64,000 bases of DNA from Saccharopolyspora erythraea NRRL 2338 (GTDB lineage Bacteria; Actinomycetota; Actinomycetes; Mycobacteriales; Pseudonocardiaceae): NCBI RefSeq assembly GCF_000062885.1, contig NC_009142.1, positions 6,375,584 through 6,439,583 on the forward strand, read 5' to 3'. A program made the translations under genes and the position numbers. Shown piece after piece: positions 15,212 to 24,923 of this stretch (position 1 is its first letter; each line of letters begins with the position of its first letter). The notes under the pieces were generated by a model. The model was given only the letters and a program-made list of their open reading frames with translations, was not told where the DNA came from and searched no databases.

Positions 15212-16120
15212 ATGCCCGCATTCCTGCTCTTCGCCATCGGCGGCTTCGTCGCACAGCTCGTGGACGGCTCCCTGGGCATGGCCTACGGGGTGACCTCGAC
15301 CACGATCCTGCTAACCGCCGGCCTGACGCCCGCGCTCGCCTCGGCGTCGGTGCACCTGGCCGAGATCGGCACCTCCGTCGTCTCCGGCGCCTCGCACTGG
15401 AAGTTCGGCAACGTCGACTGGAAGATGGTGCTCCTGCTCGGCGTGCCCGGCGCGATCGGCGCGTTCCTCGGCGCGACGGCACTGAGCAACCTGTCGACCG
15501 AGGCCGCGGAGCCGTGGATGGCGGCCATCCTGTTCGCCCTCGGCTTCTACGTGGCGCTGAAGTTCGCGCTGCGGCCGGTGCGCCGCCGCCAGCTCACCGG
15601 GGTGAGCCCCAAGCTGCTGGCGCCGCTGGGCCTGGTCGCCGGTTTCGTCGACGCCACCGGCGGTGGCGGCTGGGGCCCGGTGTCCACCCCGACGCTGCTG
15701 AGCACCGGCAAGATCGAGCCGCGCAAGGTCATCGGGTCGGTGGACACCAGCGAGTTCCTGGTCGCGCTGGCGGCCAGCGTCGGCTTCCTGACCTCGCTTT
15801 CGGACCAGAAGTTCTCCTGGACCACGGTGGCCGCGCTGCTGCTGGGCGGTGTGATCGCGGCGCCGCTGGCGGCCTACCTGGTGCGGATCGTGCCGATGCG
15901 GCTGATCGGCGTCGGCGCGGGCGGGCTGATCGTACTGACCAACGCCCGCACGCTGGTCAAGGGCCTGGACATCACGACGCCGTCGCCGACGCTGATCTAC
16001 GCGCTCATCACGGCCGCGTGGATCGCCGCGCTGGCCTACACGATCCGCGGCGTGGTGCGCGAGCGCACCCAGCCGGTCGCCGAGCAGGAAGAGGAGCAGG
16101 TCGAGGCGGTCGCCGGCTGA
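15212..16120 (+). CDS. TauE/SafE (TSUP) family transporter, probable sulfite or sulfonate exporter
   Basis: A 302-residue membrane protein with about eight hydrophobic helices. It has the family's duplicated glycine/proline motifs GSLGMAYGVTSTTILLTAGL and FVDATGGGGWGPVSTPTLL. TSUP proteins move sulfite, sulfoacetate or related organosulfur anions. ATG 15212 has GGAG 6 nt upstream; in-frame upstream residues look non-coding. The sulfur-type leader peptide in front, and a UDP-sulfoquinovose synthase (a sulfite user) convergent downstream, both support a sulfur substrate. Confidence 0.85.
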   Translation: MPAFLLFAIGGFVAQLVDGSLGMAYGVTSTTILLTAGLTPALASASVHLAEIGTSVVSGASHWKFGNVDWKMVLLLGVPGAIGAFLGATALSNLSTEAAEPWMAAILFALGFYVALKFALRPVRRRQLTGVSPKLLAPLGLVAGFVDATGGGGWGPVSTPTLLSTGKIEPRKVIGSVDTSEFLVALAASVGFLTSLSDQKFSWTTVAALLLGGVIAAPLAAYLVRIVPMRLIGVGAGGLIVLTNARTLVKGLDITTPSPTLIYALITAAWIAALAYTIRGVVRERTQPVAEQEEEQVEAVAG

Positions 16121-16752: not shown

Positions 16753-17940
<1,188 letters not shown>

Positions 17941-18218
17941 TCAATGCGGAGCCCACACGGCAGGCAGACGTCCTTCGGCGACGCCGCACCCGGCGACATC
18001 GGCCGTTGAATACAACACCGCGCATGCTCTCATCGAATCTTCGATCGGCGAAGCCCCAGGGTTGCGCCGAGCAGGAGGCGACGCCGCGGCGCCCAGCGCC
18101 GCGTGCGCTCCGTGTCCGCGTGGCAACTCCGCGTTCTGCCGGTGTTTCCCGGCGCCGTCCGCCGTCCGCCGGTCGGTATCGTTCGGTGCCGGCCGGTGGA
18201 CGTCGAAGGGGAACGCTC

Positions 18219-18680
18219 GTGTCGCAGACCGCCCAGGAACGCAGCAGCGCGGAGACGCCCGCGCGCCGGTACTGGCGGCTGCTGAGCCGGTTCGCGGCGG
18301 CTTCGGTGGTGGCCACCGGCGTGAGCCAGGTCGTGTTCGTGACGTCGTTCGCGCTTGGTGCGGTCGCGGTCGTCTCGACGGTGCTGGCCTGGCTGGCGGG
18401 CGCGGTCCCCAACTTCCTGCTCAACAGGCGCACGTGGGGTGGTGGCGGCAGGTCGGCGCTGCGCGGCGAGATCCTGCGCTACGCCGTGATCTCGGTCGGC
18501 ACCGCGCTGCTGGCCGCGGGCGCGACCAGCGCGGCGGAGTCCCTTGCGGTGTCGGCGTTCCCCGGCTCCCGGACGCCGCAGGTCGCCGTGGTCTGGGGCG
18601 CCTTCCTGGGCACCTACCTGGTGATGTTCGTGGTCAAGTTCTTCCTGGTCGACCGACTGGTGTTCGCCTCCCGCCGCTGA
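18219..18680 (+). CDS. GtrA-like membrane protein
   Basis: A 153-residue protein with four predicted helices; GtrA proteins are thought to flip polyprenyl-phosphate-linked sugars or otherwise assist envelope glycosylation. Family features include FAAASVVATGVSQVVFV, PNFLLNRRTWGG and the C-terminal VVKFFLVDRLVF. GTG 18219 follows AAGGGG by 8 nt. It is divergent from sqdB and convergent with the glycosyltransferase fusion, whose GT2 half would make the lipid-linked sugar. Confidence 0.8.
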   Translation: MSQTAQERSSAETPARRYWRLLSRFAAASVVATGVSQVVFVTSFALGAVAVVSTVLAWLAGAVPNFLLNRRTWGGGGRSALRGEILRYAVISVGTALLAAGATSAAESLAVSAFPGSRTPQVAVVWGAFLGTYLVMFVVKFFLVDRLVFASRR

Positions 18681-18818: not shown

Positions 18819-21278
18819 TCAGCGGTCGGCGGTGACCGGCTCCTCGACGCGCACGGGCGCGGACGCGGCGGTGCGGCGCTCGCGCAGCCAGGTGCCGACG
18901 ACGACCTTCAGGTAGCGGTAGCCGTAGAGGAAGTTGTTGCCCTTCTTGCTCTCCCCCGCCGTCCTGGCCAGCATCGCCATCGGCTGCTCCAGCACCCGGT
19001 AGCCGCGCGTGAGCACCCCGACCAGCAGCTCCGAGGACTGGTACTGGCGCTGGCGCAGCGTGACCGAGTTGGGCACCTCCACCTTCATGCCCCGGAAGCC
19101 GAAGGAGGTGTCGGTGATCCGCTGCCCGGTCATCGCGCTGACCATCCACGCGAAGAAGTAGGTGCCTGCGCGGCGCATCAGCTGCGGGCGCTCGCTGCTG
19201 CCGAGCCGGCGCGAGCCGGTGACGAAGTCGGCGGAGTCGTCGACCAGCGGCTGTAGCAGCTTCGGCAGCTCGGTGATGTCGTACTGCCCGTCGGCGTCGG
19301 TGGTGACGATGTAGCGGGCGCCCCGCTGGGCGGCGAGCCGGTAGCCCAGCCGCAGCGCGGCACCCTGCCCGCGGTTGACCGGCGCGACGCAGGTGTGGGC
19401 TCCGTGACGAAGGGCGACCTCGGCGGTGCCGTCGGTGGCGCCGTCCACGACGACCAGCGTGTCGACCTCCAGCCCGCAGCTCGCCGAGGGGATCGCCTCC
19501 AGGACCCCGCCCAGGGCTTCCTCCTCGTTGTAGGCGGCGATCAGCACGACGACCGGGGCGAACCGGTGGTCGCCGTAGCGGTCGGCGAACGCCTCCAGCG
19601 CGAGCCGGTCGACCCGGTCCGGGAACTCCCCGGGCTCGGTTCGCCCGGTGGCGGTGCCGGTGTCGCTGGTCGCGGGGCTGTTGGTGGAGGTCGGGGACAT
19701 CTCGCGCTCCTTAGCGGGGGTCGTCGCGCTCGGTTCGGGTACGCGGCAGGCCGCGTCGGCGGTGGCTTCGGGGGTGCGGGAGGTCGTGTCCGGTCCCGGG
19801 CCGCCGCGCGTCCCGGCCGGGTCGGTGTCGCGGCGGCCGGTGATGGCGGTGATGCCGAGGGCACCGGCGAGGGGCAGCAGCACGAGACCGGGGAGCTGGT
19901 AGCGCCACGAGAACTCCATCGCCGCCGCGGTCAGCAGCACGGTGGCGGCGAGTCCGGTGGGCAGCAGGCACAGCGCGCGCAGGCCGGAACGCCGCGCCCG
20001 GCCCGCGCCGAGCAGCGCCAGCACGCCGACGGCGAGCGCGCTGCCGAGCACGATGCCGGGCGTGTAACCGCCGCCGAGCTGGTAGGCGCGCAGGAAGCCG
20101 GCGAGTTCCGGGTCCGCCGACGGCTTCACGTCACCGTGGTGCTCGGCCCATTCCGCGACGTACCACTCGGCCCCGTACATCGGGTAGGTCGTCTGGAACT
20201 GCCAGCGGTCCAGCGGGACGTCGCCCGGGCTCTGCGTGCGGGTCGGCGCGAAGCCCTTGAGGAAGTCGGTCGCCACCCCGCCCGCGATGTCCATCGGCTG
20301 GTGCAGCAGCACCTTCCTGGCCAGCGATCCCTGTGCGGCGACGTAGTCGAAGTCCTCCGGCAGGGCCTGCACGTTGGCGGGGATGTTGTAGAAGTGGATG
20401 TAGTAGTCGATCCCGTTGCGCTCGCGGACCTCGCGCGGCTCGTCGGGGCATACCACCTGCTCGTCCGGCGTGAGGTCCAGCGCCTCGCAGTCGGCGACGG
20501 CGGCGGCGCGGCCGTAGACGACGCTGCCGGTGTGGCCGCCGAGCGCGAGCACGCCCGTCCAGGACAGGTGGTAGAGCGCGTAACCGAGGATCACCCCGGC
20601 GAAGACGCCGGCGAGCGCACCTGCCGAGACGAGCCGCCGCTTCCAGCCGTCCCGCGGCCGCAGGCCGGCCGCGAGCAGCACGAACACCGCTGCGGGCACC
20701 ACCAGCGTCAGCCCGACGATGCGGACCAGCACCGAGAGCGCGAGCACGCCGCCCGCGACCGCGGCGGGCACCGGGCCCGGGGTGCCGCGCCAGGTGAGCA
20801 CGACGACCACCGCGAGCAGCAGGAGCTGGAACAGCAGGTCGGACATGATGTTGTGCTCGATCTGGAGCTGGTAGGCGTCCAGCAGCACCGGTGCCGCCGC
20901 GAGCGCGGCGATCCACCGCCGCACCCCGAAGCGGTGCAGCAGCGCGTAGACCGCGGCGCCGAGCGCGAGACCGAGCAGGTGCTGCACGGCGGCCACGAAG
21001 GCCAGGTTGCCGACCACCAGCAGCGGACCGAGCAGCAACACCTCGTAGCCGATCGGGTTGATCCCGCCGGGGAAGAAGAACCCGAGGTCGTCGAGGTAGC
21101 GGAAGGAGTCGATGTAGAGCAGCGCGGGCTGGTAGGCCAGCTGCACGACCACCCGCAGCGCGGCCCCGGCGACCAGCAGCGACGTGATCAGCCAGTGCCT
21201 GCGCAGTGCACTCGGCCACTGGTGCCTCGGGGTGGCCGACCAGTGCGCCCGGGGCGCGCTCACCGACGTCGCGGTCAT
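18819..21278 (-). CDS. Fusion of GT-C membrane glycosyltransferase and GT2 polyprenyl-phosphate sugar synthase
   Basis: One uninterrupted 819-codon frame. Residues ~1-480 form a multi-pass GT-C protein with an early acidic loop (LLYIDSFRYLDDLG) and about ten helices. A hydrophilic Pro/Thr-rich linker (~480-560) follows. Residues ~560-819 are a GT2 enzyme with AYNEEEALGGVLEAIP, VVVDGATDGTAEV, GQGAALRLGYR and the metal site TTDADGQYD, as in dolichol/polyprenyl-phosphate mannose or glucose synthases. The ATG at 21278 overlaps the stop of the epimerase gene (ATGA). The GT2 half could load a polyprenyl carrier that the GT-C half uses as donor. Inside the linker a perfect SD precedes an in-frame ATG (19700), so the GT2 half may also be made alone. 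Confidence 0.82.
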   Translation of the reverse strand: MTATSVSAPRAHWSATPRHQWPSALRRHWLITSLLVAGAALRVVVQLAYQPALLYIDSFRYLDDLGFFFPGGINPIGYEVLLLGPLLVVGNLAFVAAVQHLLGLALGAAVYALLHRFGVRRWIAALAAAPVLLDAYQLQIEHNIMSDLLFQLLLLAVVVVLTWRGTPGPVPAAVAGGVLALSVLVRIVGLTLVVPAAVFVLLAAGLRPRDGWKRRLVSAGALAGVFAGVILGYALYHLSWTGVLALGGHTGSVVYGRAAAVADCEALDLTPDEQVVCPDEPREVRERNGIDYYIHFYNIPANVQALPEDFDYVAAQGSLARKVLLHQPMDIAGGVATDFLKGFAPTRTQSPGDVPLDRWQFQTTYPMYGAEWYVAEWAEHHGDVKPSADPELAGFLRAYQLGGGYTPGIVLGSALAVGVLALLGAGRARRSGLRALCLLPTGLAATVLLTAAAMEFSWRYQLPGLVLLPLAGALGITAITGRRDTDPAGTRGGPGPDTTSRTPEATADAACRVPEPSATTPAKEREMSPTSTNSPATSDTGTATGRTEPGEFPDRVDRLALEAFADRYGDHRFAPVVVLIAAYNEEEALGGVLEAIPSASCGLEVDTLVVVDGATDGTAEVALRHGAHTCVAPVNRGQGAALRLGYRLAAQRGARYIVTTDADGQYDITELPKLLQPLVDDSADFVTGSRRLGSSERPQLMRRAGTYFFAWMVSAMTGQRITDTSFGFRGMKVEVPNSVTLRQRQYQSSELLVGVLTRGYRVLEQPMAMLARTAGESKKGNNFLYGYRYLKVVVGTWLRERRTAASAPVRVEEPVTADR
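19698..19712 (-). promoter_or_regulatory. Internal ribosome site and in-frame ATG for the GT2 half
   Basis: AAGGAG (complement of 19707-19712) followed by 6 nt and ATG (19700) encoding MSPTSTNSP. A TAA overlapping this SD (GCTAAGGAG) is out of frame, hinting that an ancestral gene boundary was fused by a frame change. Confidence 0.55.
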
Positions 21279-22249
21279 GCCGTCCCGGAAGCGCCGGCCG
21301 CGGCCTGGAAGTCCTCCCACACCGTGCGCAGGCCGTCGGTCAGCTCGACCGAGGGGGTGTAGCCGAGCTCGCGGCCGGCCTTGGCGACGTCGACGATCAC
21401 CGCGGGCATCTCGCCGTTCTTGGCCGGGACGTGGGTGACCGGCAGCGGCCTGCCGGTGGCAGTCCGGACGGCCTCGATCAGCTCCGTCACCGAGATCGAG
21501 CGGCCGGCGCCGATGATCGCGGTGCCGCTGTACTGCTTGTCCCAGGCCGCCAGAACGCCCCGCACCACGTCGTCGACGTGCACGAAGTCGCGGCTCTGCG
21601 AGCCGTCGCCGTAGACCTCGACGCCGGCGCCCGCCAGCGCCGCGCGCATCAGGCGCGGGATGAAGCTGTCCTTGTGGCCCATGCCCGGGCCGTAGATGTT
21701 GGTGAAGCGCAGCGCGCAGGTGGCCAGGCCGTAGGCGCCGGCGTAGCCGGAGAGCAGCATCTCGCACGCGGCCTTGGTCGCGCCGTAGGGCGTCAGCGGG
21801 CGCAGCGGCAGCGACTCCGAGATCGTGCCGCGACCGATGTCGCCCACGACGGCGTTGGTCGAGGCGAGCACGAACTGCCCGAGGCCGCGCAGCCGCGCCA
21901 GTTCCAGCAGTTCCTGGGTGACCGCCACGTTGGCCGCGTAGGTCTCGGCGGGCCGGTCGACCGAGCGCAGCACCGAGGTGATCGCGGCCAGGTGGACGAT
22001 TCCGGCGGCGCCCTCGGTCACGGCGGCCTCCCGGGCCGCCGGGTCGCCGAGGTCGCCCGCGACGTGGGTGACCAGGTCGCCGCGGAGGTCCTCGGGCAGG
22101 GGCTGCTGGTCGATCACGGTGACGGGGGTGCCGCGTTCGACGAAGGCGCGCACCACGGCCCGTCCGACGAAGCCCGACCCTCCGGTGACCACGACCCGGC
22201 CGCCCGGCTGCGCGGCGTCTGCTTCGGGGGAACTAACGCTGCTTGGCAC
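21275..22249 (-). CDS. NAD-dependent sugar epimerase/dehydratase
   Basis: A 324-residue extended short-chain dehydrogenase of the UDP-glucose 4-epimerase type. It has GGSGFVGRAVVRAF for NAD binding, the catalytic YGATKAACE (Tyr-x3-Lys) and a sugar-binding region RFTNIYGPGMG. The exact sugar nucleotide is unknown. GTG 22249 is chosen since upstream residues are low complexity; its SD is weak. It is coupled by a 4-nt overlap to the glycosyltransferase fusion, so it probably makes that enzyme's donor. Confidence 0.85.
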   Translation of the reverse strand: MPSSVSSPEADAAQPGGRVVVTGGSGFVGRAVVRAFVERGTPVTVIDQQPLPEDLRGDLVTHVAGDLGDPAAREAAVTEGAAGIVHLAAITSVLRSVDRPAETYAANVAVTQELLELARLRGLGQFVLASTNAVVGDIGRGTISESLPLRPLTPYGATKAACEMLLSGYAGAYGLATCALRFTNIYGPGMGHKDSFIPRLMRAALAGAGVEVYGDGSQSRDFVHVDDVVRGVLAAWDKQYSGTAIIGAGRSISVTELIEAVRTATGRPLPVTHVPAKNGEMPAVIVDVAKAGRELGYTPSVELTDGLRTVWEDFQAAAGASGTA

Positions 22250-22369
22250 GCGCCAGACTCTAACCGGCGGAGTCTTCGCTTCCGCGAAGCCGTCCGGCGA
22301 ACGCGGCGCGTGCCGGGGCCCACCCGCTGACCAGCGCAAGTGCGATGGGACGCGCCCGCGCGGCCGCCG

Positions 22370-22804
22370 CTACGCGCCGTAGCGCCGCTGCAACGCCCTG
22401 AAACCGGCGCCGTACACGTCCTTGCCGAACTTCTCGTCGAGGGACGCTTCGTCGGCGGCCTCCGAGTCGTACTCGGAGTACCACTCGGCGAAGGTGTGCC
22501 CCCTGTCGGTGACCGGCGCGAGCCGGAGCGTGGCGACGTAGCGGCGGACCGCGAACGGGCCCTCGAGCATCTCGTAGGTGCACGAGCGCTGGATGTCGTC
22601 GAGCGCGCTCAGCCGCTCGCGGACCAGCGCGCCGTCCGACAGCGTCAGCGCGCGGACGCACCCGGGCCGGGCGTCGCCGCCACCCTCGATCTCGCTCGCC
22701 GCGACCTCCGGGTGCCACCGCGGCAGGCCGTCGAACTCGCGCACCAGGCGCCACACCTCGTCGGCCGACGCGGGGATCACGGCGCTTGTGTAGGTCCTGG
22801 CCAT
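22370..22804 (-). CDS. SRPBCC-family (polyketide cyclase/START-like) protein
   Basis: A 144-residue helix-grip-fold protein (TSAVIPASADEVWRLVREFD, LPRWHPEVAAS, FAEWYSEYD), a family that binds hydrophobic ligands or acts as cyclase/aromatase. Excellent SD GAGGAGGAACG before ATG 22804. It is the third gene of the Tm-1-like operon, 44 nt after the TIM-barrel gene, with a 9-bp hairpin (22823-22843) in between. Its role there is unknown. Confidence 0.78.
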   Translation of the reverse strand: MARTYTSAVIPASADEVWRLVREFDGLPRWHPEVAASEIEGGGDARPGCVRALTLSDGALVRERLSALDDIQRSCTYEMLEGPFAVRRYVATLRLAPVTDRGHTFAEWYSEYDSEAADEASLDEKFGKDVYGAGFRALQRRYGA

Positions 22805-22848
22805 CGTTCCTCCTCGCGGGTACCGGCGGGACCGTCCCGCCGGAGGGC

Positions 22849-23682
22849 TCAGCGGTCGCGGATCTCCAGGTTCGTGAAAGCCCGGGTCTGCTCGGTCAGC
22901 GCGCGCTCGGCGGGCAGCCGCTCCATGCTGCTGGCGCCGTAGAAACCGTGGCAGCGCTCGGTGCGCGCGAGCACGTACTCGGCGTCCTCCGGCATCGAGA
23001 TCGGACCGCCGTGGCAGAGCACCAGCACGTCCTCGCGCACCTCCGCCGCCGCGGCCGACCACTCGTCGATGAGCGCCACGCAGTCGTCGAGGCTCTTGGC
23101 GGTCTCCGCGCCGATCGACCCGCCGGTGGTCAGGCCCATGTGGCAGACGATGACGTCGGCCCCCGCCCGGGTCATCGCCCGCGCGTCGTCGGAGGAGAAG
23201 ACGTAGGGCGTGGTGAGCAGGCCGGCCTCGTGCGCGGCGGCGACCAGCTCGACCTCCAGCGCGTAGCTCATGCCGGTCTCCTCCAGGTTCGCCCGGAAGG
23301 TGCCGTCGATGAGGCCGACGGTCGGGAAGTTCTGGATGCCCGCGAACCCGAGGTCGCGCAGCTCCCGCAGGAAGCGGTCGCGCAGCATGAACGGGTCGGT
23401 GCCGTTGACCCCGGCCAGCACCGGGGTGCGGCGGACCACCGGCAGCACCTCGCGCGCCATCTCCACCACGATGTCGTTGGCGTTGCCGTAGGCCAGCAGC
23501 CCGGCCAGCGAACCGCGTCCGGCCATCCGGTAGCGGCCGGAGTTGTACAGGACGATCAGGTCGATCCCGCCGTCCTCCTCGCACTTGGCCGACAGCCCCG
23601 TCCCGGCACCTCCGCCGATGATCGGCTCGCCCGCGGCCACCTTCGCGCGCAGTCGCCGCACGATCTCGGCCCGGTCACCCAC
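22849..23682 (-). CDS. TIM-barrel protein of the phosphoenolpyruvate hydrolase-like family (Tm-1 C-terminal half)
   Basis: A 277-residue predicted TIM-barrel enzyme of unproven activity. Typical stretches are [54 protein letters not shown] and [12 protein letters not shown]. In tomato Tm-1 this domain is fused behind the UPF0261 domain, which is encoded by the gene just upstream here. GTG 23682 is placed 8 nt after GGGAG; GTG 23691, overlapping the upstream stop by 4 nt, is also possible. Plausible role: carbon-ligand chemistry on a small-molecule acid; not proven. Confidence 0.8.
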
Positions 23683-23687
23683 TGGTG

Positions 23688-24923
23688 TCACTCCCGCTGT
23701 CCTTCCTGGATCGTCCCGGCGCCGAGCACCTCTTCGAACGCGGTGAGCACGGCATCGGCGAAAGCCGGATCGTTGATGTTGTGCGGTACCCGGACGATGC
23801 GCCGGTCGCCGTCCTGGCGGAGCTCGGACTCCAGCACCTCGAACAGCACGCCGTCGGCGTCCGGGTCGTGGAACGGCTGGCCCGGCGCGTCCAGCAGCGA
23901 CACCCCGCCCTCCGGCAGCAGGAAACGCACCGGTCCCCGGCAGGCGTTGAGCTTCGCGGCGATGAACGAGCCGATCTCGCGGCATTCGTCCGGCGTGGTG
24001 CGCATCAGCGTCACCTGCGGGTTGTGCACGTAGAGGTTGCGGTCGCGGTAGCGCTCGGGGACCGTCTCGAAGGCACCGAAGTTGACCATGTCCAGCGCGC
24101 CGCACGAGCCGACGTAGGGCACGCCGGTGCGGGCGATGGCGTCGAGCCTGCCTTCACCGGCGCTCATCACGCCGCCCGCGACCAGGTCGCAGACCTCGGT
24201 GGTGGTCAGGTCGAGCACGGCGCCGATCAGGCCGTCGTCGACGAGCTTCTCCATGGCCCGGCCGCCGGTTCCGGTCGCGTGGAACACCAGCGGGTCGTAG
24301 CGCGCCTCCAGCCTGCTCGCGACCTCGGTCACGCACGGGGTGGTCACCCCGAACATCGTCAGCGCCACCGCCGGTTTGTCCTCAGTGGACGCGATGTCGC
24401 CGGTCATCGCACCGGCGAGGGCGTGCGCCGCGTTGCCGAGAACGCGGCGGGAAATCCGGTTCAGCCCGGCGACGTCGGTGACCGACGGGAACATCGCGAT
24501 GTCGGTTGCGTCCACGTAGGACGACACGTCGCCGGAGGCGACCGTGGAGACCATGACCTTGGGCACACCCACCGGCAGCGCCCGCATCGCCGGCGTGCAC
24601 AGCGCGGTACCGCCGGAGCCGCCCAGGGCGATCACACCGCCGACGGCGCGGCCCGCCAGGAACCGTTCGAGCGCCACGGCCATCGCGGTGACGGCGGTGC
24701 CGCGGTCGCCGGTGAACACCGCGGCGGCACCGTCCGGGTGGTGCCCGGCGACCTCGACGTTGCCGACGTCGGCGGGCCGGGCGTCGGCGGTGCCGGTCTC
24801 CGGGCCCGATGTGCTGACGTCGACGGTCACCACCGGAACGCCGCGCGCGGCGACGAGCCCGGCCACGTAGCCCAGCTCGGCGCCCTTGGTGTCGAAGGTC
24901 CCGACGACGTAGGCGGTGTCCAT
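23688..24923 (-). CDS. UPF0261 / Tm-1-like ATP-binding domain protein
   Basis: A 411-residue member of the UPF0261 family, related to the N-terminal domain of the tomato mosaic virus resistance protein Tm-1, which binds ATP. Conserved blocks include [75 protein letters not shown] and [22 protein letters not shown] 24923 has GGAGG upstream. It is the first gene of a three-gene operon with the TIM-barrel and SRPBCC genes. The bacterial biochemical function is not established. Confidence 0.85.

Follow-up and report, generated by a model that had tools for sequence, protein, structure and literature searches.

A predicted GT-C-like sugar transferase fused to a polyprenyl-phosphate-sugar synthase in Saccharopolyspora erythraea: a putative lipid-linked sulfoquinovose enzyme with a clade-specific internal start and a fusion probably split at least five times

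In Mycobacterium tuberculosis, Lnt and PPM synthase are fused in the protein Ppm1 (Rv2051c), the two parts of which are encoded by adjacent genes in M. smegmatis (PMC3485146, PMC3460810). Ppm1 is a close formal precedent for the protein described here, from Saccharopolyspora erythraea: in both, a membrane half is N-terminal to a GT2 polyprenyl-phosphate-sugar synthase, and the two are fused or split depending upon the species. A different membrane enzyme is joined, however. The membrane half of Ppm1 is an apolipoprotein N-acyltransferase and not a sugar transferase, whereas in S. erythraea the partner of the GT2 domain is the presumed user of the lipid-linked sugar, and the change between fused and split forms recurs within one clade that carries an internal Shine-Dalgarno (SD) sequence. 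The division of labor is that of ArnC/ArnT and DPMS/PMT, which supply the nearest solved structures for each half but are separate proteins. ArnC possesses membrane helices after its GT2 domain, whereas the S. erythraea fusion displays a single one (residues 783-806). A similar division involves Rv3779, which is a GT-C enzyme. PpgS (Rv3631) makes a polyprenyl-phosphate sugar (polyprenyl-P-GalNAc) for transfer to the envelope by Rv3779 (PMC3485146). The same scheme, with a GT2 enzyme making the lipid-linked sugar and a GT-C enzyme delivering it to the envelope, is predicted for S. erythraea; PpgS and Rv3779, however, are separate genes dealing with GalNAc, and the S. erythraea GT2 domain scores 90.8 bits against the PpgS equivalog model NF058614, below its cut-off of 370. 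In Sulfolobus acidocaldarius, the UDP-sulfoquinovose synthase Agl3 feeds a surface N-glycan containing sulfoquinovose (PMC4388408). A comparable supply of a surface glycan, rather than of a sulfolipid, is proposed for S. erythraea, although the Agl3 system is archaeal and, according to the same work, the donor for Agl1, the transferase proposed there, is UDP-sulfoquinovose itself rather than a sugar carried on a lipid phosphate (PMC4388408). Among open-licence papers, nothing directly on point was found for GT2/GT-C fusions.

The fused gene spans 18819..21278 (-) of the window, i.e., the whole 64-kb stretch of DNA analysed. It encodes 819 residues, comprising the GT-C half, a linker, and the GT2 half, without any stop. 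The earlier note had claimed a single 819-codon frame, and this frame (21278-18819, minus strand) is both open and coding. GC contents at the three codon positions are coding-like in the GT-C half (0.76/0.46/0.96) and in the GT2 half (0.71/0.48/0.97), which rules out a frame left open by chance; the upstream frame of a paralog (L002), open by accident and non-coding, was used as a control for this signature. The pooled GC3 of the linker is 0.81, a value that is weak as proof of coding. A sister genome of the same genus harbors the same fused frame, 95% identical over residues 1-819, devoid of stops and with an identical SD-ATG stretch. A sequencing error, such as an indel in the linker against which a check had been advised, is therefore excluded in practice as the cause of the fused frame. 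Since no stop separates the two halves, we infer that the full-length fusion is made. Compared with the sister species, the two domains are constrained (pN/pS of 0.25 and 0.27), and linker residues 483-522, with six nonsynonymous and no synonymous changes, are unconstrained.

The GT2 domain (residues 555-805; 18864..19616 (-)) is assigned to the polyprenyl-phosphate-sugar synthase type by Pfam, PDB, and Foldseek searches. PF00535 matches residues 578-732 above its cut-off (E=1.9e-18), and the acidic catalytic motif DADGQY is conserved. The PDB sequence search returns DPMS (5mlz, E=6e-9) as well as ArnC, and the nearest folds found by Foldseek are those of ArnC, DPMS, and GtrB, with GpgS also ranking high. 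The nearest NCBIfam model is a dolichyl-phosphate hexose transferase (105 bits for a cut-off of 375); since the score is far under every NCBIfam equivalog cut-off, the sugar is not assignable by homology. By the positive-inside rule, the GRR cluster that follows the final helix of the membrane half suggests that the GT2 half is cytoplasmic.

The multipass membrane half (residues 25-480; 19839..21206 (-)) is described as GT-C-like from AlphaFold2, Foldseek, and sequence motifs. Its AlphaFold2 model reaches a pTM of 0.83, and the nearest solved folds, Pmt4, Pmt1, ArnT, and AftB (E-values from 5e-3 to 0.1), are all GT-C; the Foldseek probabilities go up to 1.00, but with E-values of 5e-3 or worse and TM-scores of ~0.3. 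The Pfam PMT family is matched at E=0.13 only, with no curated Pfam match, and a PDB sequence search with this half returned no match. Neither Pfam nor NCBIfam matches it to apolipoprotein N-acyltransferase, the domain that a Ppm1-type Lnt fusion would carry here. A QIE motif is conserved, and Asp57 of a YIDS motif is invariant in 28 homologs; this aspartate would be the acidic residue of the first outer loop of the GT-C type. Of the enzyme types proposed in the earlier note, the GT2 is firmly assigned, while the GT-C is supported by predicted fold and conserved motifs, without a curated family model, and the N-terminal half is predicted to be a GT-C-like sugar transferase.

The neighborhood of the fusion is a conserved cassette. 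An NAD-dependent sugar epimerase (21275..22339 (-); PF01370, E=6.8e-56; motifs YGATK and GGSGFVG) has a stop that overlaps the fusion start (ATGA), and its true start probably lies inside this listed ORF. A convergent gene encodes a GtrA-like membrane protein (18006..18680 (+); domain at ~18288-18665, PF04138, E=1.6e-6). The best clue to function, which the earlier note did not mention, is the UDP-sulfoquinovose synthase next door (SQD1/SqdB family; 16753..17922 (-)), the sole copy in the S. erythraea genome and close to plant SQD1 (PDB 1qrr, E=3e-162). It keeps TMGEY and YHLSK, in line with the family signature [ST]MG...YxxxK (PMC8987622), and its putative activity is the synthesis of UDP-sulfoquinovose from UDP-Glc and sulfite. 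It is probably SACE_5690, listed among UDP-sulfoquinovose synthases without a pathway (PMC4388408). Further away, a TauE/SafE-family (sulfite exporter) membrane protein is encoded at 15212..16120 (+) (PF01925, E=2.9e-39). Sulfite is the co-substrate of UDP-sulfoquinovose synthase. Among 74 distinct homologous cassette loci sampled in Pseudonocardiaceae, SQD1 is found in 68, the epimerase in 73 (adjacent), GtrA in 71, and TauE/SafE in 19, the last only in Saccharopolyspora and close kin. Six cassettes are devoid of a nearby SQD1, and at least two of the genomes concerned (G003, G048) have it elsewhere. At L118, L122, and L172, the GT-C gene has moved beyond SQD1 and the GT2 gene adjoins the epimerase, the gene set staying together. 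Related GT2 genes near SQD1 also occur in Acidimicrobiia and Chloroflexi. Some fused cassettes (L131, L132, L183, L184, L191) carry a UDP-sulfoquinovose synthase only ~45% identical, which suggests replacement by a distant version. Upstream of the epimerase (22370-24923 of the window), a UPF0261 protein and its neighbors form a conserved flank of the cassette in both Saccharopolyspora and Actinopolyspora, and were not seen beside it in the wider family.

The two halves are connected by a linker (~residues 481-554; 19617..19838 (-)) of variable length and sequence, predicted as disordered (pLDDT <50 at residues 484-550). Within it, the internal SD AAGGAG (19707..19712 (-)), conserved in a clade of 32 loci in the form (A/G)AGGAG at a spacing of 5-9 nt, precedes an ATG at codon 527 (19698..19700 (-)) that opens a free GT2 protein of 293 residues. 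The stretch AAGGAG-CGCGAG-ATG (19712-19698 (-)) has a 6-nt spacing and is in frame, at the natural start of the GT2 domain. The pattern AAGGAG-N4-9-ATG is observed twice in the 64-kb window versus 0.69 expected from shuffles, which alone is not above chance; the meaning of the internal SD and ATG comes from their conservation in relatives, not from window statistics. The in-frame signal reported earlier is indeed kept across the clade, and its ATG coincides with the GT2 gene start in 13 relatives in which the genes are split. The out-of-frame TAA at 19713-19711, previously read as a hint of an old gene boundary, is confined to S. erythraea and its sister species. Other relatives read ccgaaggag, cacgaaggag, or ccgaggag at this position, and the TAA is rejected as a relic and considered incidental.

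The GT-C half is found in 90 of 240 family genomes, covering 24 of 46 genera. The comparison of orthologous loci recommended in the earlier note reveals both forms, with 61 fused and 13 split loci among the 74. Forty-two loci, from many Pseudonocardiaceae genera, are fused through a short, compact linker without a comparable internal SD. The SD and ATG are found in only one clade of 32 loci (Saccharopolyspora, Halosaccharopolyspora, and Actinopolyspora), 19 of them fused and 13 split into two adjacent genes. In the first ortholog set (15 fused and 11 split loci, window and sister species included), an SD-like (A/G)AGGAG or AGGAG precedes the GT2 ATG with a spacing of 5-9 nt in all members except L020, which is fused and without an SD-like stretch; one split species has a weakened version, ATGGAG. 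Median SD pairing energies are -9.3 kcal/mol in the 19 fused and -8.4 in the 13 split loci of the clade, versus -4.65 in the other fused loci when the best of any candidate start is taken (p=3e-7, relatedness ignored). As judged from these sequences, the SD is the start signal of the separate GT2 genes in the split species, and the fused species of the clade probably make free GT2 in addition to the fusion; in S. erythraea, a second initiation at ATG 19700 would probably add the 293-residue protein. Genes that are separate but share this SD and its spacing, which the earlier note had held to speak against the fusion, do exist in the 13 split loci; they do not refute it, because fusion is the family-wide state. 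Several loci that are still fused (L120, L163, L168-L170, L173, L175, L178) show CGGAGG (or CGGAG) ~6 nt before an in-frame TTG/ATG, at the same position as the start of the SD clade and in a longer linker; this is possibly a second, independent internal start.

On a tree of 94 rows, built without the linker, the loci with the SD group together in a single clade (SH-aLRT 100), with five changes between fused and split states and a single change for the SD. The five splits are those of HNM0983, of S. rectivirgula, of S. elongata together with S. shandongensis and S. spinosa, of L136, and of Actinopolyspora. They differ in form: the ATG is immediately preceded by an in-frame TGA, the two genes are separated by a 28-nt gap, or the GT-C gene overlaps the first 70-80 nt of the GT2 gene in a different frame. 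Because relatives outside the SD clade are fused without an SD, the fusion is probably ancestral in the sampled Pseudonocardiaceae and the split genes derived, by at least five splits, a polarity that is probably the reverse of the passage from two genes to a fusion implied earlier. It rests on parsimony, and a biased re-fusion rate could reverse it. The SD may have been gained in the clade (one gain) or kept from before the fusion (two losses). Among the fused loci of the SD clade, linker length has undergone at least 11 in-frame changes, versus five splits (p=0.004 against one third in frame), and in SD-less loci at least nine changes, all in frame and without a break; frame-breaking does not differ significantly between the clade and the other loci (Fisher p=0.12). 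Changes that are always in frame where the GT2 has no other start indicate that the frame is kept there, and less strictly in the SD clade. By supplying extra free GT2, the internal start would remove the need for a covalent link, and this may be why the gene has split repeatedly. The open-licence literature returned nothing directly on point for gene fission initiated by an internal start.

Two other histories have been weighed. Only the fusion might be made, the internal SD and ATG being vestigial or incidental, as the SD-less fusions of the rest of the family and the chance-level frequency of such a signal in the window would allow; the SD and its spacing are nevertheless kept clade-wide, in fused and split loci alike, in a linker that is otherwise unalignable, and this possibility is judged quite improbable. 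Slightly less so, albeit still unlikely, is an origin from two genes, in which stops between coupled genes were often lost in a stop-poor genome and fusion was nearly neutral. It would accord with the GT2 gene being alone in Acidimicrobiia and the GT-C gene alone elsewhere, with the ease with which high-GC frames open by accident (as upstream of L002), and with the lack of amino-acid constraint on the linker, but it requires many more than five changes on the tree and has to accommodate 42 compact, SD-less fusions outside the clade as well as linker length changes biased to in-frame.

As for function, SQD1 would make UDP-sulfoquinovose, possibly epimerised, from which the cytoplasmic GT2 domain would load the sugar onto polyprenyl phosphate. 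With help from the GtrA-like protein, the lipid-linked sugar would flip across the membrane, and the GT-C half would pass it to an envelope acceptor outside, the fusion holding maker and user of the lipid-sugar together. We infer the sugar, the topology, the acceptor, and the two-product output of this pathway from sequence. UDP-sulfoquinovose is the most likely GT2 donor because of the conserved neighbors, SQD1 with the cassette; the epimerase could mean a sugar other than sulfoquinovose. A cassette devoted to such a sugar (a hexose, for instance, or GalNAc, as in the arabinogalactan pathway of PpgS and Rv3779), with SQD1 serving the SQDG sulfolipid, is somewhat unlikely. The galE-like epimerase is the closest neighbor, and the nearest NCBIfam models are the dolichyl-phosphate hexose transferase, at 105 bits, and PpgS, at 91 bits, yet these scores are far from the equivalog cut-offs of 375 and 370, and SQD1 accompanies the cassette at 68 of the 74 loci; a query with S. 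meliloti SqdD found no homolog in the S. erythraea genome, a weak negative.

The reading of a bifunctional membrane enzyme acting in a lipid-linked sulfoquinovose pathway, with an internal start particular to one clade and an ancestral fusion subsequently split at least five times, is considered fairly probable. The more specific proposal, tentative at this stage, is that one chain both makes and uses polyprenyl-phosphate-sulfoquinovose to build a sulfonated envelope glycan, and that the clade records a fission series that began with an internal ribosome-binding site and continued with at least five separations. If true, donor synthesis and use of a lipid-linked sugar would be united in one chain, and the finding would point to a sulfonated sugar in the cell envelope of actinomycetes that produce antibiotics, for which no such pathway was found described in the open-licence literature. 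The fused, fused-with-start, and split forms exist side by side, so that the passage from a single gene to a pair is open to direct testing. Stand-alone GT-C paralogs, without nearby GT2, SQD1, or epimerase, are also observed (L157, L167, L171, L176, L180, L181, L186), some of them in genomes with a fused copy elsewhere.
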